Below are positions 6,630-18,617 of a stretch of 64,000 bases of DNA, in pieces; positions within the stretch are counted from its first letter, which is position 1; the number at the start of each line of letters is the position of its first letter. Below the pieces are notes generated by a model, which made no database searches, was not told where the DNA came from, and saw nothing but the letters and a program-made list of their open reading frames with translations. The stretch comes from Aurantimonas aggregata (GTDB taxonomy: Bacteria > Pseudomonadota > Alphaproteobacteria > Rhizobiales > Rhizobiaceae). The DNA lies in contig NZ_JAAAMJ010000011.1 of assembly GCF_010500835.1 (NCBI RefSeq), forward strand, positions 1 to 64,000. The letters run 5' to 3'. A program made the position numbers and the translations under genes.

Positions 6630-7676
6630 TCACGCGTCTTCGTGGATGAGTTCGACAGCCAGCCCGGCCAGCACCGGCACGTTGCGACCGAAGATCGCCG
6701 CCTTCTCCGGATTGGAAGCGTTGCCGTCGAGCGAGCGCTTGTAGACGCCCTGCAGGATGGCCGCGAGGCGGAAGAACGAGAAGGCGAGGTAGAATGGCCA
6801 GTGCTCGATCGCGTCGAGAGCGCGCCGATCGCAGTAGCGCCGGACATAGTCGGCTTCCGAAGGGATGCCCTGGGCGGCGCGATCGACATTGCCGAGGCCC
6901 TTGAAGGCGCCGAGATTGGGCAGGCGCCACTGCATGCACTGATAGGCGAGATCGGCGAGCGGGTGACCCAGCGTCGACAGTTCCCAGTCGAGGATCGCCA
7001 GGATCTCCGGCCGGTCCTTGGCGAACATGATGTTGTCGAGGCGATAGTCGCCGTGCACGAGGCTCACCGCGCCGTCGTCCGGCGGCAGGTTATCGGCGAG
7101 CCAGGCCGCCAGTGTCTCCATGTCGTCGATCTGGTCGACCTTGGACTGGCGGTACTGCTCGGACCAGCGCGTCAGCTGGCGCTCGAAATAGTTGCCGGGC
7201 CGGCCGAAATCCTCGAGCCCCAGCGCTTCCACATCGAGATCGTGCAGGGCGGCCAGCGCGGCGTTCATCGCATCGAAGATCGCCGCGCGCTCGGTCGGAT
7301 CGTCGATCTCCGGCAACGCCGGATCCCAGAAGATGCGGCCGTCGCAATATTCCATGACGTAGAACATCCGGCCGAAGGGCGAGGCCCGCTCGTCCGCCAG
7401 ATGCAGCGGCTGCGGCACCGGCACGGCGGTGCCGGCGAGCGCCCGCATCACGCGGAACTCGCGGTCGACCTGATGGGCGGATTTCAGCAGCGGTCCCGGC
7501 GGCTTGGTCCGCAGCACATAGATGCCGCTCGCCGCATCGATCCGGTAGGTGGGGTTTGACTGGCCGGCCTGGAATTGCACCAGATGTTCCAGGCCCTCGA
7601 AACCGTCGACATGCGCCTCGAGATAGCGGCCGAGCGCCAGTTCGTCGATCGGCTGGTCGGCGGACTCGCGGCTCAT
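6630..7676 (-). CDS. APH-family phosphotransferase, ACAD10/11- and LvaA-like (candidate 4-hydroxyacyl-CoA kinase)
   Basis: The 348-residue kinase-like protein has an ATP-lobe with LRTKPPG (catalytic-lysine strand), the catalytic loop HGDYRLDNIMF (His208, Asp210) and a metal-binding DWELSTLGHP. These match the APH-type phosphotransferases that sit as a domain in ACAD10/ACAD11 and as LvaA in levulinate catabolism. Those enzymes phosphorylate the 4-hydroxyl of 4-hydroxyacyl-CoA so that an acyl-CoA dehydrogenase-like partner can eliminate it. The start overlaps the MaoC stop (ATGA), and an acyl-CoA dehydrogenase gene lies divergently at 9876. The substrate assignment rests on family and context; the kinase fold is clear. 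Antibiotic resistance is unlikely for this subfamily. Confidence 0.8.
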   Translation of the reverse strand: MSRESADQPIDELALGRYLEAHVDGFEGLEHLVQFQAGQSNPTYRIDAASGIYVLRTKPPGPLLKSAHQVDREFRVMRALAGTAVPVPQPLHLADERASPFGRMFYVMEYCDGRIFWDPALPEIDDPTERAAIFDAMNAALAALHDLDVEALGLEDFGRPGNYFERQLTRWSEQYRQSKVDQIDDMETLAAWLADNLPPDDGAVSLVHGDYRLDNIMFAKDRPEILAILDWELSTLGHPLADLAYQCMQWRLPNLGAFKGLGNVDRAAQGIPSEADYVRRYCDRRALDAIEHWPFYLAFSFFRLAAILQGVYKRSLDGNASNPEKAAIFGRNVPVLAGLAVELIHEDA

Positions 7677-8185
7677 TGCGCCGGCGGCTCGAGCACGGCG
7701 ACGGTGATCCACTGCGCCGAAAGGGCCGGCTTGACGCCACCCTCGATCTCCACCGCTGCATCCCAGCTGGTCTGCAGCGTCACCGCCCGCTCGTTGAGAC
7801 CGATCATCCTGAAGCGGCCGCGGACCCGCGTGCCGACGCGGACCGGATTGAGGAAGCGGACTTTGTCGAAGCCGTAATTGACGCCCATCTTCGTCCCGAT
7901 GACGCCGGGCAAGGCATCGTAGGCGAGCGTCGACAGCAGCGACAGGGTCAGGAATCCGTGCGCGATCGTGCCGCCATAGGGGCTTTCTTCCCTTGCGCGA
8001 ACCGGATCGACATGGATGAACTGGTGGTCGTGGGTCGCGGCGGCGAAACGGTCGATCATCTCCTGATCGACAGTGAGCCAGTCTGAGACGAATTCGTCCT
8101 TATCGAGATGCGCCCGGTAGGCCTCGATCGGAATCAGGCGTGCGCGGAGCATCGTCTCCGTTTCCGCCACGGATGCCAGTGCCAT
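7673..8185 (-). CDS. MaoC-family (R)-specific enoyl-CoA hydratase/dehydratase
   Basis: This 170-residue hot-dog-fold protein carries the hydratase-2 signature DHQFIHVD, with Asp and His in the D-x4-H arrangement, followed by GGTIAHGFLTLSLL. It hydrates trans-2-enoyl-CoA to 3-hydroxyacyl-CoA. The start at 8185 overlaps the SDR stop (TGATG) and the stop overlaps the kinase start, so the three minus-strand genes form one coupled operon. Here it could hydrate the enoyl-CoA made by the acyl-CoA dehydrogenase/kinase pair. Confidence 0.85.
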   Translation of the reverse strand: MALASVAETETMLRARLIPIEAYRAHLDKDEFVSDWLTVDQEMIDRFAAATHDHQFIHVDPVRAREESPYGGTIAHGFLTLSLLSTLAYDALPGVIGTKMGVNYGFDKVRFLNPVRVGTRVRGRFRMIGLNERAVTLQTSWDAAVEIEGGVKPALSAQWITVAVLEPPAQ

Positions 8186-9009
8186 CAGGCCTCCTCGAAG
8201 AGTTCGTGTCCGGTTTCCACCGCGATGCCGCCGTCGATCGGCAGGATCGCTCCGGTGATATATGCCCCGCCGCGGCCGCAAAGGAACAGCGCCGCACCGG
8301 CAATGTCGTCGGGCGAGCCGATCCGCCCCAGCGGCACGCCGCGCCCGACCGCCGCCGCCTGTTCGTCCGTACCCGTGGCGAAGGCCGTCATCTTCGACTG
8401 GAAGGGACCCGGCGCAAAAGCGTTGACGGTGACGTGGCGGCCGGCGAGTTCCTTGGCGAGGCAGCGGGTCAGATGATGCACCGCGGCCTTGGACGCGGCG
8501 TAGGAATAGACGTTCTGGCCGAGCGGCGCCGAGCCCATCACAGAGCCGAGATTGACGATTCGGGCCGGGTCGTCCGGCGTGGACGACGCCTCGAGCAGCG
8601 GCAGCAGGCGCTGCGTCACGGTGAACAGCCCGGCAACGTTGACGTCCATCACCTTCTGCCAGGCGGCGTGCGGAAACGTCTCGAGTGGCGCGCCCCAGGA
8701 GACACCGGCATTGTTGAACAGGATCTCCAGCCGGTCCGTCCGCGCCTCGACGGCTTCTGCGAGGGTTGCGATCCCGGCCTCGCTCGAGACGTCGCCGGCA
8801 AACCCCTCGACCGTGCCGGGATGGCCCTCGGCGTTGATCGCGGCCGCGGCAGCCTCGCAGGCCTCGGCCTTGCGGGAGGCGATGAGCACCCGCGCCCCGG
8901 CGCCGGCCAAAGCGGTGGCGATCATCCGGCCGATGCCGGTCGCCCCGCCGGTGACCAGCGCGGTCTTGCCCTCCAGCGAGAACAGGCGTTGCAGGATCGG
9001 CATGTCCAT
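8185..9009 (-). CDS. Short-chain dehydrogenase/reductase
   Basis: A 274-residue classical SDR. It has cofactor motif TGGATGIG (about residues 17-24), NNAG, catalytic Ser in the LGSVMGS strand, and YSYAASK with catalytic Tyr and Lys. The start at 9009 follows AAGGGA; longer in-frame starts to 9096 run into the regulator's operator. It is the first gene of the minus-strand operon. It probably oxidises a hydroxyacyl intermediate to the keto compound, since LvaD in the levulinate system is also an SDR. The exact substrate cannot be read from the sequence. Confidence 0.85.
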   Translation of the reverse strand: MDMPILQRLFSLEGKTALVTGGATGIGRMIATALAGAGARVLIASRKAEACEAAAAAINAEGHPGTVEGFAGDVSSEAGIATLAEAVEARTDRLEILFNNAGVSWGAPLETFPHAAWQKVMDVNVAGLFTVTQRLLPLLEASSTPDDPARIVNLGSVMGSAPLGQNVYSYAASKAAVHHLTRCLAKELAGRHVTVNAFAPGPFQSKMTAFATGTDEQAAAVGRGVPLGRIGSPDDIAGAALFLCGRGGAYITGAILPIDGGIAVETGHELFEEA

Positions 9010-9102
9010 GGGCACTCCCTTGCATGCGGCGTCAGGTAGCCGGCGAGCGCATCCTGGCGCGATCGTTGCCAGAGCCGGAAAGCACGCCCCCTTCATCGGC
9101 AG

Positions 9103-9131
9103 TTGACATCATACCCGTTGGTATGTCCAGA
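9103..9131. promoter_or_regulatory. TetR operator between the divergent SDR operon and TetR gene
   Basis: A perfect inverted repeat, CATACC-CGTT-GGTATG, lies at 9110-9125, immediately after a TTGACA -35-like hexamer at 9103-9108 and upstream of the TetR ATG at 9139. It is the only strong palindrome in the divergent gap and is the size and type bound by TetR dimers. By inference it controls both directions. Confidence 0.6.
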
Positions 9132-9138
9132 CTTCGCC

Positions 9139-9879
9139 ATGGAGACCGACGACCGCCCTTCCGGGGAAGGCAACCCGACCGCAAAAGCCGGCGGCCGGTC
9201 CCGGTCGACACGCGACTTTACCGTCGCCCGGGCCCATGCCGAGGCAGACGAGACGCTGGCGGCGATCCTGTCGGCGGCGGCAGCGGCCTTCCGCGAGCAT
9301 GGCTTTGCCGCCGCGTCGATCGACGACGTGGCGCGCCGGCTCGGCGCGACGAAGGGGCTCGTCTATCACTACTACCGCTCGAAGAACGATCTTTTCCTCG
9401 ATGTGTGCCAGCGGGGCATGGCGATCGACTTCGCGGCGGTGGCGGCGCCGGCCGCGTCGCGCGACCGTGCGGTGACGCGGCTACGGGCGATGGCCGAGGC
9501 GCATCTGACGACGATGCTGCAGCATAACGATTTCCAGCACGCGATCCTGCAGGCCGTCGCCCGCCATCTGGGCGGCCCGGCAACCGGCCAGGACGGCGAG
9601 CGGCTGGCCGGGGTAATCGCGGCGCGCGACCGCTATGAAATGCTGTTTCGCCGGACTCTTGCCGAGGCCGTCGCCGAGGGCGATCTGGCCGGCTGGGCGG
9701 ATGCATCGCTCACCGGCAAGGCGTTCCTGGCGGTGCTGAATGCGCCGGTCTTCTGGTATCGCGAACAGCCGAACGAGACGGAAGCGGATCGCCGCGCCCT
9801 TGTCCGCGAACTGGCGCTATTCGCCTTGCGAGGCGCCGGGGCAAGCGAAGCCATCATCGAGGAGGAATTCGGCTCATGA
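9139..9879 (+). CDS. TetR-family transcriptional regulator
   Basis: The 246-residue protein has an N-terminal extension of about 45 residues and then a TetR helix-turn-helix (AFREHGFAAASIDDVARRLGATKG, then VYHYYRSKNDLF). The C-terminal ligand domain is all helical. I choose the ATG at 9139; a TTG at 9103 would start inside the operator. The stop overlaps the acyl-CoA dehydrogenase start (ATGA), so regulator and enzyme are cotranscribed. It probably represses both divergent arms and responds to an acyl-CoA or the hydroxyacid. Confidence 0.85.
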   Translation: METDDRPSGEGNPTAKAGGRSRSTRDFTVARAHAEADETLAAILSAAAAAFREHGFAAASIDDVARRLGATKGLVYHYYRSKNDLFLDVCQRGMAIDFAAVAAPAASRDRAVTRLRAMAEAHLTTMLQHNDFQHAILQAVARHLGGPATGQDGERLAGVIAARDRYEMLFRRTLAEAVAEGDLAGWADASLTGKAFLAVLNAPVFWYREQPNETEADRRALVRELALFALRGAGASEAIIEEEFGS

Positions 9880-11108
9880 CCATCATGGCGCTTGGCATGA
9901 CCGACCGGCTGAAACCACTCCATGCCGCCGTGCGGGACATGGTCCGCGACGAGATCGCGCCGGCCAGCGAGGAATTCCTTGCCGAAGTGCCGAAGGAAAG
10001 CCGATGGGTCTACACCGCCCGGCAGACGGCAATTCTCGAAGGGCTGAAGGCGCGGGCGAAGGCGCGGGGCCTGTGGAACTTCTGGCTGACGGATTCGGCC
10101 CGCGGCTACGGCCTGACGACGGTCGAATACGCCTATCTCGCCGAGGAGATGGGCAAGGCGCATCTGGGCGCCGAGACCTTCAACTGCTCGGCGCCCGATA
10201 CCGGCAACATGGAGGTGTTCGAGCGCTACTGCACGCCGGAGCAGCAGGCGCCCTGGCTGCCGAGGCTGCTCGAGGGCGAGATCCGCTCGGCCTATCTGAT
10301 GACCGAGCCGGACGTCGCTTCGTCCGACGCCAGCAACATCGCCATGGCCTGCGTCGCCGACGGCGACGACTATGTCATCGATGGCGAGAAATGGTGGTCG
10401 TCCGGCGCCGGCGACCCGCGCTGCGCGATCTACATCGTCATGGTCCGGACCGCCGGCGACGAAGCGCCGAAGCACCAGCGCCACTCGATGATCCTGGTGC
10501 CGGCAGACACGCCGGGCGTCGAGGTGCTGCGGGCGATGACCGTCTTCGGCGACGACGACGCGCCGCACGGCCACATGCATATCCGCTTTTCCGGCGTGCG
10601 GGTACCGAAGGCGAACCTGATCCTTGGCGAAGGCCGCGGCTTCGAGATCGCGCAGGGGCGGCTCGGCCCCGGCCGCATCCACCATTGCATGCGGGCGATC
10701 GGCCAGGCGGAGGTGGCGCTGGAGATGATGTGCCAGCGGGCGCTGCGGCGCGAGGCCTTCGGCCGGCAACTGGCCGATCTCGGGGCCAATCACGACATCA
10801 TCGCCGATTGCCGGATGGAGATCGAGATGGTGCGCCTGCTCTGCCTGAAGGCGGCGTGGATGATGGACCAGGGCGACCGGCGCGCCGCCGCCCCGTGGAT
10901 CAGCCAGATCAAGGTCGCGGCGCCGCGGATGGCGCTGAAGGTCGCCGACGAGGCGATCCAGATGCACGGCGCCGAAGGCATCAGCCAGGACCAGCCCCTC
11001 GCCCGCCTCTGGACGCATCTGCGCACGCTCCGGCTGGTCGACGGGCCGGACGCGGTGCACCGCCGGCAGGTGGCCCGGTGGGAGCTGGCGAAGCATGTGG
11101 AGGTGTGA
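9876..11108 (+). CDS. Acyl-CoA dehydrogenase family protein, ACAD10/11-like
   Basis: A 410-residue flavoprotein of the acyl-CoA dehydrogenase fold. It has a helical N-terminal domain, the FAD/substrate beta domain (MTEPDVASSDASNIA; EKWWSSGAGDPRC) and a C-terminal helical domain with RREAFGRQLADLGA and MHGAEGISQDQPLA. The MTEPDVASSD and WWSSGAGD motifs are typical of the ACAD10/11 and LvaC group that works with an APH-type kinase on 4-hydroxyacyl-CoA. It is coupled to the TetR gene by ATGA and lies divergent from the kinase operon. A role as an ordinary alpha,beta-dehydrogenase remains possible. Confidence 0.85.
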   Translation: MTIMALGMTDRLKPLHAAVRDMVRDEIAPASEEFLAEVPKESRWVYTARQTAILEGLKARAKARGLWNFWLTDSARGYGLTTVEYAYLAEEMGKAHLGAETFNCSAPDTGNMEVFERYCTPEQQAPWLPRLLEGEIRSAYLMTEPDVASSDASNIAMACVADGDDYVIDGEKWWSSGAGDPRCAIYIVMVRTAGDEAPKHQRHSMILVPADTPGVEVLRAMTVFGDDDAPHGHMHIRFSGVRVPKANLILGEGRGFEIAQGRLGPGRIHHCMRAIGQAEVALEMMCQRALRREAFGRQLADLGANHDIIADCRMEIEMVRLLCLKAAWMMDQGDRRAAAPWISQIKVAAPRMALKVADEAIQMHGAEGISQDQPLARLWTHLRTLRLVDGPDAVHRRQVARWELAKHVEV

Positions 11109-11120
11109 GCGGAGCCCGTG

Positions 11121-11315
11121 TCAGGCGGCCTCGGCGAGCATGGAAGGCGACAGATGGCGGCTGGCTTCCATCACCTCCATCCCGACGATGCGCCCGTCCG
11201 CATCGTAGTCGAGGACGATGCCGTCGGAGACTTCTTCGCTCTCGAGAACGGCTTCGGGCGAAAAGCGGATGTATGCCGCGTCGGATTCGCGATCGTAGCG
11301 AACAGTCAGGGTCAT
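11121..11315 (-). CDS. DUF2283 protein (possible antitoxin partner)
   Basis: This small 64-residue protein (MTLTVRYDRESDAAYIRFS...GIVLDYDADGRIVGMEVMEAS) shows the DUF2283 pattern clearly. The start at 11315 overlaps the stop of the DUF4258 gene (ATGA). DUF2283/DUF4258 gene pairs are widespread and are often listed as toxin-antitoxin-like; which member would be toxic is not established by the sequence. Confidence 0.75.
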   Translation of the reverse strand: MTLTVRYDRESDAAYIRFSPEAVLESEEVSDGIVLDYDADGRIVGMEVMEASRHLSPSMLAEAA

Positions 11316-11569
11316 GGTCGGCGCGCCCTTCGATCGAAGAATGCGGTGATTATGCGGATTTCGTCGGATTTTTCCATCACCACCACCCGAAGGATGCGAT
11401 TGCCGTGCTCGGGGATCGCTCGATAACGTCGCTCGACGCCGGGACGCCGCGGATCGGGCAGGATCCATTCAGGCTTGTGGATCGTGCGCACGATCCACGT
11501 AAAGGCCAATTCGCGCTCGCCGATGGCATCGCTCGCATGAGCGGAGTATGCCAAGCGCTTCTCTTCCAT
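11312..11569 (-). CDS. DUF4258 protein (possible toxin of a small gene pair)
   Basis: The 85-residue protein begins with a YSAHASDAIGEREL segment, then IHKPEWILPDP, a basic RRYRAIPEHG strand and LRVVVMEKSDEIRIITAFF. This matches the DUF4258 fold, which is related to RelE/BrnT-like RNases. The translation stop overlaps the following DUF2283 start. The role in a toxin-antitoxin pair is inference from composition and pairing. Confidence 0.65.
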   Translation of the reverse strand: MEEKRLAYSAHASDAIGERELAFTWIVRTIHKPEWILPDPRRPGVERRYRAIPEHGNRILRVVVMEKSDEIRIITAFFDRRARRP

Positions 11570-11631: not shown

Positions 11632-12600
11632 ATGAAAGCCATCGTCTGCGAGGCCTACGGGCCGATCGAGACCCTCGCCTATCGCGACATGCCGGACCCT
11701 GTCGCGGGGCCGGGTGAGGTGATCGTCGAGGCCGAGGCGATCGGCGTGAACTATCCGGACGGGCTGCTGGTGCAGGGGCTTTACCAGGCGCGGCCGGCGC
11801 TGCCCTTCGTGCCCGGCATGGAGGTCGCGGGACGGGTGATCGCGATCGGCGCCGAGGTGATGCGGCTGGCGGTGGGCGACCGGGTCGTCGCATCGCTGCA
11901 GTTCGGCGGCTATGCCGAGAAGGTCGCGGTCACCGAAGCAGCGGCGACCCAGCTGCCCGAGGACTTCGACGCCGGTGTCGCCTGCGCCCTCGTCTGCGCC
12001 TATGGCACCGCCTATCACGCGCTGAAGCAGCGGGCAGCGCTGCAGCCGGACGAGACCCTGCTGGTGCTGGGCGCGGCGGGCGCCACCGGCCTTGCCGCGG
12101 TGCAGATCGGCCAGGCGATGGGCGCCCGGGTCATCGCCGTCGCATCCTCGGAGGACAAGCGGTCGCTCGCAGTCGGCGAAGGCGCCGACGTCGCCATCGG
12201 CTACGACGACCTTCGCGAGGACCTGAAGCGGCTGACCGACGGCAAGGGCATCGACGTGGCGTTCGACCCGGTCGGCGGCGACGCGTTCGACGCGGTCGCG
12301 CGGTCAATGGCGTGGAATGGGCGCCTGCTGGTGGTGGGCTTTGCCTCCGGCACGATCCCGCAGCTGCCGGTGAACCTTGCGCTGGTCAAGGGCTTCAGCG
12401 CCGTCGGCGTGTTCTGGGGCGCCTTCGTCGAGAAGGAGCCGGAGCAGGCCGCCGCCAACATGGCGGAGCTGATCGCCTGGACCGCCGAGGAACGGCTGCA
12501 GCCGGTGATCACCGAACGCGGACGGCTGGCCGATGCGGCGGAGATCCTCGGGCGTATCCACGCCCGCCAGACGACCGGCAAGCTGATCCTGGTACCGTAG
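11632..12600 (+). CDS. NADPH:quinone oxidoreductase family protein (MDR)
   Basis: The 322-residue zinc-free medium-chain dehydrogenase/reductase starts MKAIVCEAYG, has an N-terminal GroES-like domain (GVNYPDGLLVQGLY, PFVPGMEVAGRV) and a C-terminal Rossmann domain (LGAAGATGLAAVQIG at about residue 144). It lacks the structural-zinc cysteines of alcohol dehydrogenases. The family reduces quinones or enones with NADPH. The start at 11632 is preferred over an in-frame start at 11548, which overlaps the DUF4258 gene antisense. Confidence 0.8.
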   Translation: MKAIVCEAYGPIETLAYRDMPDPVAGPGEVIVEAEAIGVNYPDGLLVQGLYQARPALPFVPGMEVAGRVIAIGAEVMRLAVGDRVVASLQFGGYAEKVAVTEAAATQLPEDFDAGVACALVCAYGTAYHALKQRAALQPDETLLVLGAAGATGLAAVQIGQAMGARVIAVASSEDKRSLAVGEGADVAIGYDDLREDLKRLTDGKGIDVAFDPVGGDAFDAVARSMAWNGRLLVVGFASGTIPQLPVNLALVKGFSAVGVFWGAFVEKEPEQAAANMAELIAWTAEERLQPVITERGRLADAAEILGRIHARQTTGKLILVP

Positions 12601-12698: not shown

Positions 12699-13745
12699 AT
12701 GGCCGCCCTGCCCGACACGATGCACGCGCTCGTCCTCAAACATGACGGCTATTCGGGCACGTCCGACGGCCCGACGATCACCGACCTGAAGGACTGGGTC
12801 TCGCTGGAGGAGATTTCGGTGCCGAAGCCCGGCGCGCGTCAGGTCCTGATCAAGATCGGCCTCGCCAACGTCAATCCGTCGGACCTGCATTACATCAAGG
12901 GCGAATATGGCCAGCCGCGCCGGCAGGGCGCCGCCGCCGGCTTCGAGGGGATGGGCGAGGTCGTCGCCGCGGGCGAGGACGAGGCCTCGCGAACGCTGAT
13001 CGGCCAGCGCGTCGCGGTCGCTGCCGGGCGCACCGGCACGGGCGTCTGGGCCGAGTACGCGCTGGCGGATGCGGCCGCCGTGGTGCCGCTGGCGCCGGGC
13101 CTGCGCGACGAGGACGCGGCGGCCCTGATCGTCAACCCGATGACCGCCTGGGCGATGGTCGACCTCGTCAGGGACTACGGATCGTCCGCCTTCGTCATGA
13201 CCGCCGGCGCCAGCCAGCTGTGCAAGCTGATGGCGTCGCTGGCGCGTGACCGCGACATGCATGCGATCGCCGTCGTGCGGCGCGAGGAGCATCGCGCGAT
13301 GCTCGAAGGCCTCGGCGCCGGCACCGTGCTGAATTCGGCTCGCGAGGATTTCGACGAGCTGCTGGTCCAGGCGATGAAGGAGACGAAGCCGCGGGTGCTG
13401 CTCGATGCCGTCGCCGACCAGGATGCGGCCACCATCTTCACCGCGATGCCGGCCGGCGCGCGCTGGGTGATCTACGGCAAGCTCTCGCCAGAGGCGCCGA
13501 AGCTGCCGGGGCTCGGCCAGATGGTGTTCATGAAGAAGGTCATCGAAGGCTTCTGGCTGGCCGAATGGATGGCGCGGGCAACGCCCGAGCAGCGGGTCGA
13601 GGGCTTCACCGAGGTCCAGAAGCGCTTTCTTTCGGGCGCCTGGCAGACCGACGTGGCCGAGACGATTCCACTGGCCGAGGCACCGGATCGTCTGGCCGCA
13701 GCGCTGGATGGGATGAACCGCGGCAAGGTTTTCCTGCGCCCCTGA
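12699..13745 (+). CDS. Zinc-type alcohol dehydrogenase-like/MDR oxidoreductase
   Basis: This 348-residue medium-chain dehydrogenase/reductase has a GroES-like N-terminal half (NPSDLHYIKGEYG, GFEGMGEVVAAG) and a nucleotide-binding C-terminal half (VMTAGASQLCKLM region). The catalytic zinc Cys/His set is not evident. It resembles enoyl reductase/crotonyl-CoA-reductase-like MDR proteins. It follows another MDR gene after 98 bp on the same strand, so the two may be cotranscribed, but they are not close copies. Substrate unknown. Confidence 0.75.
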   Translation: MAALPDTMHALVLKHDGYSGTSDGPTITDLKDWVSLEEISVPKPGARQVLIKIGLANVNPSDLHYIKGEYGQPRRQGAAAGFEGMGEVVAAGEDEASRTLIGQRVAVAAGRTGTGVWAEYALADAAAVVPLAPGLRDEDAAALIVNPMTAWAMVDLVRDYGSSAFVMTAGASQLCKLMASLARDRDMHAIAVVRREEHRAMLEGLGAGTVLNSAREDFDELLVQAMKETKPRVLLDAVADQDAATIFTAMPAGARWVIYGKLSPEAPKLPGLGQMVFMKKVIEGFWLAEWMARATPEQRVEGFTEVQKRFLSGAWQTDVAETIPLAEAPDRLAAALDGMNRGKVFLRP

Positions 13746-13878
13746 CGGCCGCCCAAGCGGCGCGCTGCGACACCTCATTCTCCCGCAGCGCGGCAAAAAC
13801 GACGGCTTCCCGGTTCATATGAGGCAGCATGCTTCTATATGGCCGGGGATAGAGCGCAGCGAGCAGACAGGAGACGAC

Positions 13879-15654
13879 ATGTGCGGCATTTGCGGTGAGG
13901 TCCGGTTCGACGGAAAATCAGCGTCGCCCGAACGGATCTCGCAGATGGCCGCCTGCCTGGAGCGGCGCGGGCCGGACGGGGCCGGCCAGGTGGTGCGCGG
14001 CCGGGTGGGCCTCGGCCATCGCCGGCTGAAGATCATCGACCTGACCGACAAGGCCGAGCAGCCGATGGTCGATCCCGACCTTGGGCTGACCATCGCCTTC
14101 AACGGCTGCATCTACAACTATCCGGAGCTGCGCCAGGAGCTCTCCGGCCTCGGCTACCGCTTCTTCTCGCATGGCGATACCGAGGTCATCCTCAAGGCGT
14201 ACCACGCCTGGGGCCGGGACTGCGTCAAGCGCTTCCACGGCATGTTCGCCTTCGCGATCCACGAGCGCGACAGCGGCCGTGTGATGCTGGCGCGCGACCG
14301 CTTCGGTATCAAGCCGCTGTATCTGTCGCAGGACGACAAGCGCCTCTACATCGGCTCGTCGCTCCAGGCCATCCTGCGGACCGGCGACGTCGACACCTCG
14401 ATCGACCGCGAGGCGCTGCACCATTACATGACGTTCCACGCCGTCGTCCCCCCGCCGCTGACCATCGTCAAGGGCGTGCGCAAGCTGCCGCCGGCGACGA
14501 CGCGGATGATCGAGGCGGATGGCAGCTTCACCGACGAGGTCTACTGGGAGGCGGTCTTCGGCTCCCGCCCGGGCGACGAAAAGCTTTCCTCAAACGACTG
14601 GCGCGACCTCGTGCTGGAATCGCTGAAGACCGCCGTCGGCCGGCGCATGGTCGCCGACGTGCCGGTCGGGGTGCTCTTGTCGGGCGGGGTGGATTCGTCG
14701 CTGATCGTCGGGCTGCTGGCGGAAGCCGGGCAGGCCAATCTCAACACCTTCTCGATCGGCTTCGAGGATGCCAATGGCGAGGTCGGCAACGAGTTCGAGT
14801 TCTCCGACCTGATCGCGCGCCATTACGGCACCGAGCACCACCGCATCTTCATCCCCGGCTCGGAACTGATGGAGCACCTGCCCGGTACGATCCAGGCGAT
14901 GTCCGAGCCGATGGTTTCCTACGACAATGTCGGCTTCTACCTGCTGTCGCGCGAGGTCTCCAAGCACATCAAGGTGGTGCAGTCCGGCCAGGGCGCCGAC
15001 GAGGTGTTCGGCGGCTATCACTGGTACCCGCCGATGGTGGGCTCGAACGATCCGCTGGCGGCCTATTCGAGCGCGTTCTTCGACCGCTCCGACGCGACGC
15101 TGCGCCAGCAGATCTCCCCGGAATGGCATGCCGAGGGCGACGTCAGCCGCGACTTCGTCGCGCGCCATTTCGCCCAGCCCGGCGCCGAGAACCCGGTCGA
15201 CAAGGCGCTGCGGATCGACGCGCACGTGATGCTGGTCGACGATCCGGTGAAGCGGGTAGACAACATGACCATGGCCTGGGGCCTCGAGGCCCGCGTGCCC
15301 TTCCTCGACCACGAGCTGGTCGAGCTGGCGGCGCGCGTGCCGGCGTCGGAAAAGCTCAAGCAGGACGGCAAGGGCGTGTTGAAGGAAGCCGCCCGGCTGG
15401 TGGTCCCGCACGAGGTCATCGACCGCAAGAAGGGCTATTTCCCGGTGCCGCAGCTGAAATACATCTCCGGCCCGTATCTCGAGATGGTCCGCGATACGCT
15501 CGGCTCGGAAGCCGCACGCTCGCGCGGCCTGTTCCGGCAGGATTATCTCGACACGCTGTTCGCGGCACCCTCCGACCACATCACGCCGCTGCGCGGCTCC
15601 GAACTCTGGCAGGTCTCGCTGCTGGAGATGTGGCTCCAGCAGCAGGGACTGTAG
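13879..15654 (+). CDS. asnO: N-acetylglutaminylglutamine amidotransferase (asparagine synthetase-like)
   Basis: The 591-residue class II amidotransferase starts MCGICGE, with Cys2 as the glutaminase nucleophile after Met removal. An N-terminal glutamine-hydrolysing domain covers about residues 2-190. The C-terminal synthetase domain carries the ATP pyrophosphatase loop LSGGVDSSL at about 266-274. It resembles asparagine synthetase B, but its place before a GNAT/ATP-grasp gene and an M42 peptidase identifies the NAGGN osmolyte operon. There it amidates N-acetylglutaminylglutamine to give the amide. The start is at 13879 (after AGGAG), since in-frame sequence upstream would mask the catalytic Cys. 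Confidence 0.88.
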   Translation: MCGICGEVRFDGKSASPERISQMAACLERRGPDGAGQVVRGRVGLGHRRLKIIDLTDKAEQPMVDPDLGLTIAFNGCIYNYPELRQELSGLGYRFFSHGDTEVILKAYHAWGRDCVKRFHGMFAFAIHERDSGRVMLARDRFGIKPLYLSQDDKRLYIGSSLQAILRTGDVDTSIDREALHHYMTFHAVVPPPLTIVKGVRKLPPATTRMIEADGSFTDEVYWEAVFGSRPGDEKLSSNDWRDLVLESLKTAVGRRMVADVPVGVLLSGGVDSSLIVGLLAEAGQANLNTFSIGFEDANGEVGNEFEFSDLIARHYGTEHHRIFIPGSELMEHLPGTIQAMSEPMVSYDNVGFYLLSREVSKHIKVVQSGQGADEVFGGYHWYPPMVGSNDPLAAYSSAFFDRSDATLRQQISPEWHAEGDVSRDFVARHFAQPGAENPVDKALRIDAHVMLVDDPVKRVDNMTMAWGLEARVPFLDHELVELAARVPASEKLKQDGKGVLKEAARLVVPHEVIDRKKGYFPVPQLKYISGPYLEMVRDTLGSEAARSRGLFRQDYLDTLFAAPSDHITPLRGSELWQVSLLEMWLQQQGL

Positions 15655-15660
15655 TCTCCG

Positions 15661-17463
15661 ATGGCGGACAACCGGCCGAAGAACCCCTCGCAGCACCGGC
15701 TGATGCGGATGCGGACGCAGGCGCTGAAGGCGCCGATCAACCAGCAGCGGGCTGACGGCGGTGGGCCGGAGGAGAACGCCTATCTCGACTGCGGCTGGGG
15801 GCGGCTGGTGTTCGCCCAGACCTTCGACGATCCGAAGGAACTCGTCAGCAGCCTGCGCGAGGAAGGCAACGACCGGCGCGACATCGCCTTCTATGTCCGC
15901 GACCCGCACGTGCTGCTCAGCCATGCGCCGCAGGAGTTGTTCCTCGACCCGTCGCACACCTACCGCCTGGACCTTTCGACCTACCGCGCCGGCTCGCGGC
16001 GGCCGCGCGGCTATTTCATCCGCCGGCTGTCCTCGGAACTCGACGCGACGGAGGTCAACCGCATCTACCAGAGCCGGCACATGGTGCAGGTGCACCCGGC
16101 CTTCTTCTGGTCGAACCGCGACAACCGGGCGCTGACCTATTTCGTCGCCGAGGACGAGACGACCGGCGCGATCATCGGCACGGTCACCGGCGTCCACAGC
16201 CGCCGTGCCTTCTCGGACCCGGAGAACGGCTCGTCGCTCTGGTGCCTCGCCGTCGATCCGCAGGCGACGCATCCGGGCATCGGCGAAAGCCTGGTGCGGC
16301 GGCTCGCCGAGCATTTCCAGGCGCGCAGCTGCGCGTTCATGGATCTCTCGGTCATGCACGATAACGAGATGGCCATCGCCCTCTACGAGAAGCTCGGCTT
16401 CTACCGCGTCCCGTATTTCGCGGTGAAGCGGAAGAACGAGATCAACGAGAAGCTCTTCACCGGCTCCGGCGCCGATTACGATGGCCTGAACCCCTACGCT
16501 CGGATCATCGTCGACGAGGCGCGGCGTCGCGGCATCCATGCCGAGGTGACGGACGCGGCCGGCGGCTTCTTCCGCCTGACCCAGGGCGGCCGGTCGATCC
16601 ATTGCCGCGAAAGCCTGACCGACCTCACGTCGGGCGTCGCCATGTCGATCTGCGACGACAAGGCGGTCACCCGGCGTGTCGTGGAAGCGGCCGGGGTCGC
16701 CGTGCCCGAGCAGATCGACGCCGATATCGACGAGGCGGCGATCGAGGCGTTCATCGAGAAGCACGGGCAGATCGTCGTGAAGCCGGCGCGCGGCGAACAA
16801 GGTCGCGGCATCGCCGTCGGCATCGACAATCTTGCCGATGCCAAGGCCGCCATCGAGGCAGCCCGCCTGCAGTCGGACCGTGTGCTGCTCGAGGCCTGCT
16901 TCGAGGGCAGCGACCTGCGCCTCATCGTCATCGACTATCGCCTCGTCGCCGCAGCCCTGCGGCAGCCGCCGGTGGTGACCGGCGACGGCCACACCAGCGT
17001 GCGCGAACTGATCGAGCGCCTGTCGCGCCGCCGCGCGGCGGCGACGGGCGGCGAGAGTCGGGTGCCGCTGGACGCCGAGACCGAGCGCTGCGTGAAGTCC
17101 GCCGGGTTCGGCCTCGACGACGTCCCGCCGGAAGGCGAGCGGCTCACCGTGCGCAAGACCGCCAATCTCCATACGGGCGGGACGATCCACGACGTCACCG
17201 GCGACGTGCATCCGCGGCTGGTCGAGGCGGCGGTGGCCGCGGCCCGGGCGATCGAGATCCCGGTCACCGGCATCGACTTCATGGTCAAGGCGCCGCATCG
17301 GCCGGAATACGTCTTCATCGAAGCCAACGAACGGCCGGGCCTCGCCAATCACGAGCCGCAGCCGACCGCAGAGCGCTTCATCGACCTCTTGTTTCCGTTG
17401 TCGATTCCGTTTTCAGTGCGCGCCGCCAGGAATCAACGGCAGAAGCCGAGGAAGGACGAGTAG
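15661..17463 (+). CDS. ngg: N-acetylglutaminylglutamine synthetase (GNAT + ATP-grasp)
   Basis: A 600-residue fusion. The N-terminal half contains a GNAT acetyltransferase domain (about residues 110-265; IIGTVTGVHSRRAF and CLAVDPQATHPGIGESLV are the acetyl-CoA-binding region). The C-terminal half is an ATP-grasp ligase (about 280-585; IVVKPARGEQGRGIAVG and FIEANERPG). Together they would acetylate glutamine and ligate two glutamines into N-acetylglutaminylglutamine. This pairing is diagnostic of the NAGGN synthetase. It starts 6 bp after asnO and its TAG stop overlaps the next GTG start. Confidence 0.9.
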   Translation: MADNRPKNPSQHRLMRMRTQALKAPINQQRADGGGPEENAYLDCGWGRLVFAQTFDDPKELVSSLREEGNDRRDIAFYVRDPHVLLSHAPQELFLDPSHTYRLDLSTYRAGSRRPRGYFIRRLSSELDATEVNRIYQSRHMVQVHPAFFWSNRDNRALTYFVAEDETTGAIIGTVTGVHSRRAFSDPENGSSLWCLAVDPQATHPGIGESLVRRLAEHFQARSCAFMDLSVMHDNEMAIALYEKLGFYRVPYFAVKRKNEINEKLFTGSGADYDGLNPYARIIVDEARRRGIHAEVTDAAGGFFRLTQGGRSIHCRESLTDLTSGVAMSICDDKAVTRRVVEAAGVAVPEQIDADIDEAAIEAFIEKHGQIVVKPARGEQGRGIAVGIDNLADAKAAIEAARLQSDRVLLEACFEGSDLRLIVIDYRLVAAALRQPPVVTGDGHTSVRELIERLSRRRAAATGGESRVPLDAETERCVKSAGFGLDDVPPEGERLTVRKTANLHTGGTIHDVTGDVHPRLVEAAVAAARAIEIPVTGIDFMVKAPHRPEYVFIEANERPGLANHEPQPTAERFIDLLFPLSIPFSVRAARNQRQKPRKDE

Positions 17464-18617
17464 TGCCAAGGCTCGCCATCGATGCCCAGTATCTGACGGA
17501 CCAGCTCAAGGCGCTCCTGAACATACCCAGCCCGACGGGCTATACCGACACGGTCGTCCGCCATGTCGCCAAGGAGCTCGAGCGGCTCGGCCTGACCGTC
17601 GAGCTCACCCGCCGCGGTGCGATCTCGGCGCTGCGCCAGGGCTCGCGGCGCGCGTCGGCACGCGCCATCGTCAGCCATCTCGACACGCTGGGCGCCCAGG
17701 TGAAGCGGCTGAAGGAGAACGGCCGGCTGGAGCTCGTTCCGATCGGCAACTGGTCCGCCCGCTTCGCCGAGGGCGCGCGGGTCACCGTGTTTTCGGAAGC
17801 CGGGACCTATCGTGGCACGATCCTGCCGCTGAAGGCTTCCGGCCACACCTATAACGACGAGATCGACAGCCTGCCGGTGGGCTGGGACTATATCGAGCTT
17901 CGGGTCGACGCACTGGCGCGCGACCGCACCGAGCTCGACCGGCTCTGTATCGAGGTCGGCGACACGGTGGCGATCGATCCGCAGCCGGAATTCATGGACA
18001 ACGGCTTCATCGTCTCGCGCCATCTCGACAACAAGGCGGGCGTCGCCGTGATGCTCGCCGCGATCGAATCGATGGAGCGGACCGCTGCCGCGACGCCCGT
18101 CGACATCCACTGGCTGTTCACCATCGCCGAGGAGGTCGGCGTCGGCGCCGCCTCGATCCTGACGCCGGACGTCGCCTCGATGATCGCCGTCGACAACGGC
18201 ACGTCCGCGCCCGGTCAGAACTCGTCGGAATTCGGCGTGACCATCGCGATGGCCGACCAGTCCGGGCCGTTCGACTACCATCTGACCAAGAAGCTGGTGC
18301 GGCTCTGCCAGGACGAGGACATCCGCTACCAGAAGGACATCTTCCGCTACTACCGTTCCGATTCCGCTTCGGCCATCGAGGCCGGACACGACGTGCGCAC
18401 GGCGCTGATCACCTTCGGCGTCGACGCTTCGCACGGCTACGAGCGCATCCACACCCATTCGCTGCGCTCGCTGGCCGAGCTGATCACCGCCTATGCGACC
18501 TCGCCCGTCGAGATCGAGCGCGACCGCAACATCCATGCCGGGATCAAGGGCTTCACCCGCCAGCCGGCGGTCGAGGCAGCGCAGGCGCGGGCCGAGGACC
18601 TTGACCCGGCGGAGTGA
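17463..18617 (+). CDS. NAGGN-system M42 family metallopeptidase
   Basis: The 384-residue M42 (glutamyl/deblocking aminopeptidase-like) protein has HLDTLG and HLDNKAG (zinc ligands), EEVG (general base Glu and ligand) and a late HGYERIHTHS zinc-binding strand. It begins at a GTG that overlaps the TAG stop of ngg (TAGTG), so it is the third gene of the NAGGN operon, matching the known gene order. Its likely role is turnover of the dipeptide osmolyte when osmolarity falls; this is inference from the cluster. Confidence 0.85.
   Translation: MPRLAIDAQYLTDQLKALLNIPSPTGYTDTVVRHVAKELERLGLTVELTRRGAISALRQGSRRASARAIVSHLDTLGAQVKRLKENGRLELVPIGNWSARFAEGARVTVFSEAGTYRGTILPLKASGHTYNDEIDSLPVGWDYIELRVDALARDRTELDRLCIEVGDTVAIDPQPEFMDNGFIVSRHLDNKAGVAVMLAAIESMERTAAATPVDIHWLFTIAEEVGVGAASILTPDVASMIAVDNGTSAPGQNSSEFGVTIAMADQSGPFDYHLTKKLVRLCQDEDIRYQKDIFRYYRSDSASAIEAGHDVRTALITFGVDASHGYERIHTHSLRSLAELITAYATSPVEIERDRNIHAGIKGFTRQPAVEAAQARAEDLDPAE

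Follow-up and report, generated by a model that had tools for sequence, protein, structure and literature searches.

A predicted phosphorylation-elimination gene cluster for 4-hydroxyacyl-CoAs in Aurantimonas aggregata

What is the substrate of an APH-fold kinase whose gene lies in one divergent cluster with that of an acyl-CoA dehydrogenase (ACAD)? This question is raised by the first 64,000 nucleotides of contig NZ_JAAAMJ010000011.1 of Aurantimonas aggregata (forward strand, in the following called the window), where the two genes are accompanied by genes for a MaoC-type hydratase, a short-chain dehydrogenase/reductase (SDR) and a TetR-family regulator. Judged from its sequence, the cluster very probably degrades 4-hydroxy acids by phosphorylation-elimination, as lately shown in mammals. 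The predicted conversion of a 4-hydroxyacyl-CoA via a 4-phosphoacyl-CoA to a 2-enoyl-CoA is well supported by homology: the residues of ACAD11 are retained, the kinase groups with ACAD11 in a tree, and kinase and dehydrogenase families occur together. That the whole cluster forms a TetR-controlled catabolic module for 4-hydroxyacyl-CoAs, with steps carried out by the kinase, the ACAD, MaoC and the SDR, we regard as likely.

The kinase and the dehydrogenase

The putative 4-hydroxyacyl-CoA kinase (6630-7676, minus strand; PF01636, E 5.8e-50) matches the structures 3dxp (E 1.8e-102, 50% identity) and 8v3v of mouse ACAD11 (E 3.9e-76, 43% identity). The solved-structure table lists 3dxp as a 'putative acyl-CoA dehydrogenase', yet its alignment to the kinase covers nearly the whole length. 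PMC12440821 links residues of the ACAD11 family to CoA, phosphate or catalysis and names D220, N225, R86 and R176 as used by the ACAD11 kinase. These correspond to D222, N227, R84 and R178 of the window kinase, which are invariant in the kinase alignment. All four are present in the 56 rows of both ACAD-linked kinase clades, and the two arginines occur in none of 11 kinases linked to DUF6285 genes. The genome encodes five APH-family proteins in total, one of which is a kinase of this kind.

The kinase tree comprised 67 rows, with LvaA and LvaC not among the sequences. The window kinase is placed within a group of 50 rows that includes mouse ACAD11 and 3dxp (support 84/96, under the strict mark of 95/80), and its own group consists of six Aurantimonadaceae-like rows (100/99). 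Six rows from Pseudomonas, Ideonella and others form a separate group (98/99), and the 11 DUF6285-linked kinases stand apart from both (100/100). The phylogeny had been set beforehand as a refutation test for a kinase of the ACAD10/11-LvaA kind, and in this tree without LvaA the protein does not fall outside the ACAD10-11 clade. Residues and tree thus bear out the ACAD10/11 part of that assignment, while 'LvaA-like' is the weaker label, since the kinase groups with ACAD11 and outside the Pseudomonas/Ideonella clade.

The dehydrogenase (9876-11108, plus strand; PF00441, E 4.2e-36), proposed to act as 4-phosphoacyl-CoA phosphate eliminase, was placed by score bands and residues rather than by a tree of ACADs. 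Its closest solved structures are 4hr3 (E 3.4e-123) and 8v3u of mouse ACAD11 (E 1.4e-119), with human and mouse ACAD11 entries at 1e-117 or below and medium-chain ACADs far behind (1e-43). The best named match is from A. endophytica (98%). In its own genome the protein is the sole family member, the next match reaching at most 34% over part of the length. For ACAD11, PMC12440821 describes that D753 is used, that an HCMR motif is required and that R626 probably serves phosphate. The window ACAD retains R262, H270, R273 and D389 at the positions of mouse R626, H634, R637 and D753, H270-R273 being the HCMR motif. Together the four residues are found in 165 of 167 aligned family rows, in contrast to 6 of 41 lower-scoring ACAD-like open reading frames. 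One of the two exceptions has a tyrosine at H634, the other a different residue there and a gap at D753. The structural matches and the four retained residues confirm the dehydrogenase as a member of the ACAD10/11 kind.

Both families were also counted in whole genomes, with thresholds of E 1e-90 for the ACAD search and E 1e-60 for the kinase profile. Among 398 Pseudomonadota genomes, the ACAD was found in 129, the kinase in 131 and both in 129, so that only 2 of the 269 genomes without the ACAD possess the kinase (Fisher p 3e-104, uncorrected for kinship). The 60 relatives gave a similar result, with the ACAD in 29, the kinase in 34 and both in 29 (kinase in 5 of the 31 genomes without the ACAD). 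The ACAD is present in 96 of 99 Pseudomonas-like genomes, and the two of the 99 without a kinase match are also without the ACAD. The earlier view of kinase and dehydrogenase as a functional pair therefore agrees with a co-occurrence that is almost without exception (129/129).

The divergent cluster and its putative operator

With gene starts set at chosen ATG codons rather than at the longest open reading frame, the kinase is preceded on the minus strand by the MaoC-type hydratase (7673-8185; PF01575, E 7.7e-23), proposed to be a 2-enoyl-CoA hydratase, and by the SDR oxidoreductase (8185-9009; PF13561, E 3.5e-54), proposed to be a 3-hydroxyacyl-CoA dehydrogenase or a 4-ketoacyl-CoA reductase. 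The MaoC protein sequence contains D-x4-H, which we take to be its motif, and no NCBIfam model scored over its cut-off for the SDR among the matches listed. On the plus strand, the TetR-family regulator (9139-9879; PF00440, E 1.3e-15; PF17932, E 3.2e-10) precedes the ACAD. MaoC and kinase genes as well as TetR and ACAD genes overlap by ATGA, SDR and MaoC genes by TGATG. The first-pass annotation had described these five genes as one divergent cluster with ATGA coupling, and Pfam matches and overlaps agree with this. It let the module end at 11108, however, which is too early: the five genes stand, but the conserved module runs to 13745 and includes QOR1 (11632-12600, plus strand; PF00107, E 7.1e-25; TIGR02824 under its cut-off), a zinc-free quinone/enoyl oxidoreductase-like protein, and QOR2 (12699-13745, plus strand; PF08240, E 2.8e-13), a second oxidoreductase of the same superfamily.

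The conservation was assessed in a non-redundant set of 107 loci whose ACAD is close to that of the window; 83 of them extend 6 kb or more to either side. As the loci were picked as close ACAD relatives, the counts describe this group only. Within 6 kb of the ACAD, the 83 loci contain the kinase in 52 cases, MaoC in 52, the SDR in 47, TetR in 41, QOR1 in 42 and QOR2 in 32, where TetR is always on the ACAD strand and both QOR genes were counted on that strand. Kinase, MaoC, SDR and TetR are all present in 35 loci, and 29 of these also possess QOR1. In the layout common among relatives, one arm carries SDR2-kinase-MaoC-SDR, whereas TetR-ACAD-QOR1-QOR2 form the second arm. This gene arrangement is not due to chance.

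It might be argued that the kinase is an antibiotic phosphotransferase which lies next to an ordinary dehydrogenase by accident, since it has the APH fold and gives a match to the NCBIfam APH(3') model, though a weak one (36 bits with a cut-off of 205). This is contradicted by the ACAD11-type residues, the near-perfect co-occurrence and the conserved synteny, and we reject it as highly improbable.

Between SDR and TetR lies the palindrome CATACCCGTTGGTATG (9110-9125, no strand; CATAC-N6-GTATG), closely preceded by TTGACA. It is the only match in the window, where 0.01 would be expected. We searched the 1.1 kb upstream of the ACAD for the site in 100 loci of relatives, some genomes being represented twice, and found it in 50 of 59 loci with a TetR open reading frame as compared to 1 of 41 without; four more copies occur elsewhere in 1.72 Mb. 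In the non-redundant set, 36 of 41 TetR loci have it. One locus scored as a miss, L073, has the same palindrome between SDR and TetR in its sequence. From this distribution, the palindrome is likely to be the TetR operator.

Some of the surrounding genes vary. A DUF2283 gene (11121-11468, minus strand) lies between ACAD and QOR1, and some other loci from Aurantimonas also have such a gene close to the ACAD. In other Aurantimonas, a thiolase gene (assigned by Pfam) is located between kinase and MaoC and a second SDR gene after the kinase; the second SDR was not found in the window. In some Mesorhizobium loci, genes for a Liv-type transporter and an AMP-ligase follow. Further downstream in the window (13819-18617), asparagine-synthetase-like, acetyltransferase/ATP-grasp-like and peptidase-like genes follow in a row, which from their translations we presume to resemble an N-acetylglutaminylglutamine amide cluster.

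The proposed pathway and competing readings

In the pathway that we propose, the kinase would use ATP to phosphorylate the 4-hydroxyl group of a 4-hydroxyacyl-CoA. The ACAD would then remove the C2 proton, transfer a hydride to FAD, expel the phosphate and return the hydride, giving a 2-enoyl-CoA and needing no outside electron acceptor; a hydride-return mechanism of this kind is proposed in PMC11342911 and PMC12440821. MaoC would hydrate the 2-enoyl-CoA to a 3-hydroxyacyl-CoA, which the SDR would oxidise to a 3-ketoacyl-CoA for a thiolase encoded elsewhere in the genome. TetR, bound to the palindrome, would repress both divergent arms until an acyl-CoA ligand comes. We infer the reactions of kinase and ACAD from assayed homologues, and the roles of MaoC, SDR and QOR, the repression and the ligand from gene content alone. 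MaoC and then the SDR as the next steps of beta-oxidation would fit the gene content and the thiolase of the sister species.

Several observations weigh against this proposal. The co-occurrence counts lack phylogenetic independence, and the first look at co-occurrence scored at most four candidates per genome. In 25 of the 83 close ACAD loci, neither kinase nor MaoC nor SDR lies within 6 kb. The thiolase of the sister species is absent from the window and its best match in the genome reaches just 46%. We also found no CoA ligase in the window, the sole query being the Mesorhizobium AMP-ligase, which gave no match. Finally, the 6 of 41 lower-scoring ACADs that retain all four residues are distant proteins encoded beside DUF6285-linked kinases, and the four residues alone therefore do not fix the partner kinase. 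In favour of the proposal, on the other hand, genomes whose ACAD stands alone have the kinase at another place: it is present in all 41 ACAD genomes queried, many of which lack an adjacent kinase, and these cover 8 of the 25 'ACAD alone' loci.

With the same core chemistry, the SDR might instead act upstream and reduce a 4-ketoacyl-CoA to the 4-hydroxyacyl-CoA, leaving the rest to MaoC and general beta-oxidation. LvaD of P. putida is an SDR in that role according to PMC6692424, and SDR genes adjoin the kinase in many loci, including the order kinase then SDR in Pseudomonas. However, the window SDR is coupled by TGATG to the MaoC hydratase, the second SDR of the sister species could take the upstream role, and in a comparison that did not include LvaD the window SDR is no nearer to the kinase-linked SDRs of Pseudomonas (36%) and Ideonella (30%) than to SDRs generally. 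We consider an upstream SDR possible, but the less probable of its two placements.

It is rather unlikely that the cluster is a dedicated pathway for levulinate or 4-hydroxyvalerate, in other words the lva operon under other controls. The two core enzymes would be the same, and P. citronellolis is described in PMC6692424 as using levulinate without lvaB. On the other hand, the divergent regulator is a TetR and not a sigma-54 activator, the kinase lies outside the Pseudomonas/Ideonella clade, and neither a ligase (one AMP-ligase query, in the window) nor an LvaB-like gene was seen. The statement of the first-pass annotation that LvaB- and LvaE-like genes are missing holds as far as tested, with no AMP-ligase match in the window and no DUF6285 gene in the genome. 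The correspondence of DUF6285 to LvaB was itself a guess, and we rejected it as an LvaB test because DUF6285 genes, where found (14 of 200 genomes), adjoin kinases of a separate clade.

The superfamily of the QOR proteins includes alkenal and enoyl reductases. QOR1 and QOR2 might therefore reduce a 4-hydroxy-2-enal, -enone or -enoyl-CoA, after which kinase and ACAD would remove the 4-hydroxyl group, MaoC and SDR would complete the turn and TetR would sense an intermediate. Such a dedicated route for 4-hydroxylated products of lipid peroxidation or lactones appears doubtful to us; if true, bacteria would have a stress-linked counterpart to the mammalian disposal of 4-hydroxynonenal.

Relation to known systems and significance

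The proposed phosphorylation-elimination cluster shares with mammalian ACAD10 and ACAD11 the same kinase and ACAD subfamilies and the binding and catalytic residues, the kinase being 43% identical to that of mouse ACAD11. In contrast to the mammalian fusion protein, Aurantimonas has two proteins encoded on divergent arms and its own TetR, MaoC, SDR and QOR. Burkholderia pseudomallei likewise has a kinase and an ACAD of this family as separate proteins, matched here by family rather than by alignment, which according to PMC11342911 perform both reactions and replaced the ACAD10 domains in vitro. The related kinase of B. cenocepacia is 58% identical to the window kinase; a histidine phosphatase gene is present at its locus, which lacks the TetR arm. 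With lvaABCDE of P. putida, the cluster has in common a kinase, an ACAD and an SDR, there acting on 4-hydroxyvaleryl-CoA, but it differs in the regulator (TetR instead of the sigma-54 regulator LvaR), in the additional MaoC and QOR and in the ligase and LvaB-like genes, which were not seen. Whereas the window kinase is 43% identical to that of ACAD11, only 29% identity to ACAD10/11 kinases is reported for LvaA in PMC11342911.

No true lva operon was present in the ten ACAD regions of Pseudomonadaceae that were inspected by gene list, nor in four kinase regions. Among Pseudomonas genomes, 385 of 398 possess a kinase of the second clade. In Pseudomonas (e.g. L260, L261 and L262), the ACAD gene is solitary except for a neighbouring LysR gene, and the kinase gene is found elsewhere with an SDR gene; in L261 and L262, genes for a histidine phosphatase and an SCP2 protein adjoin the kinase. 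This arrangement amounts to a split, uncharacterised form of the pathway. In the loci L192-L197 (e.g. L193:5019-10083), a distant ACAD (33-36% identical) that retains R626, HCMR and D753 adjoins an SDR, an APH kinase without the two CoA-contact arginines and mostly a DUF6285 gene, with AMP-ligase and Liv transporter genes in addition in L193. Perhaps the same chemistry exists here in a second version, separate from the first.

Our literature search, limited to open-licence papers, found no study of this cluster in Aurantimonas. The cluster is a further example of an ACAD10/11-type kinase-dehydrogenase system, with its own regulator, operator and accessory genes. It ties a widespread gene pair (129 of the 398 sampled Pseudomonadota genomes) to a chemistry that has been shown so far in few proteins. 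The conserved regulator and operator offer a means of identifying the true inducer; MaoC, SDR and QOR are candidate partners of the pair. If the link to QOR holds, this would indicate a substrate other than levulinate.

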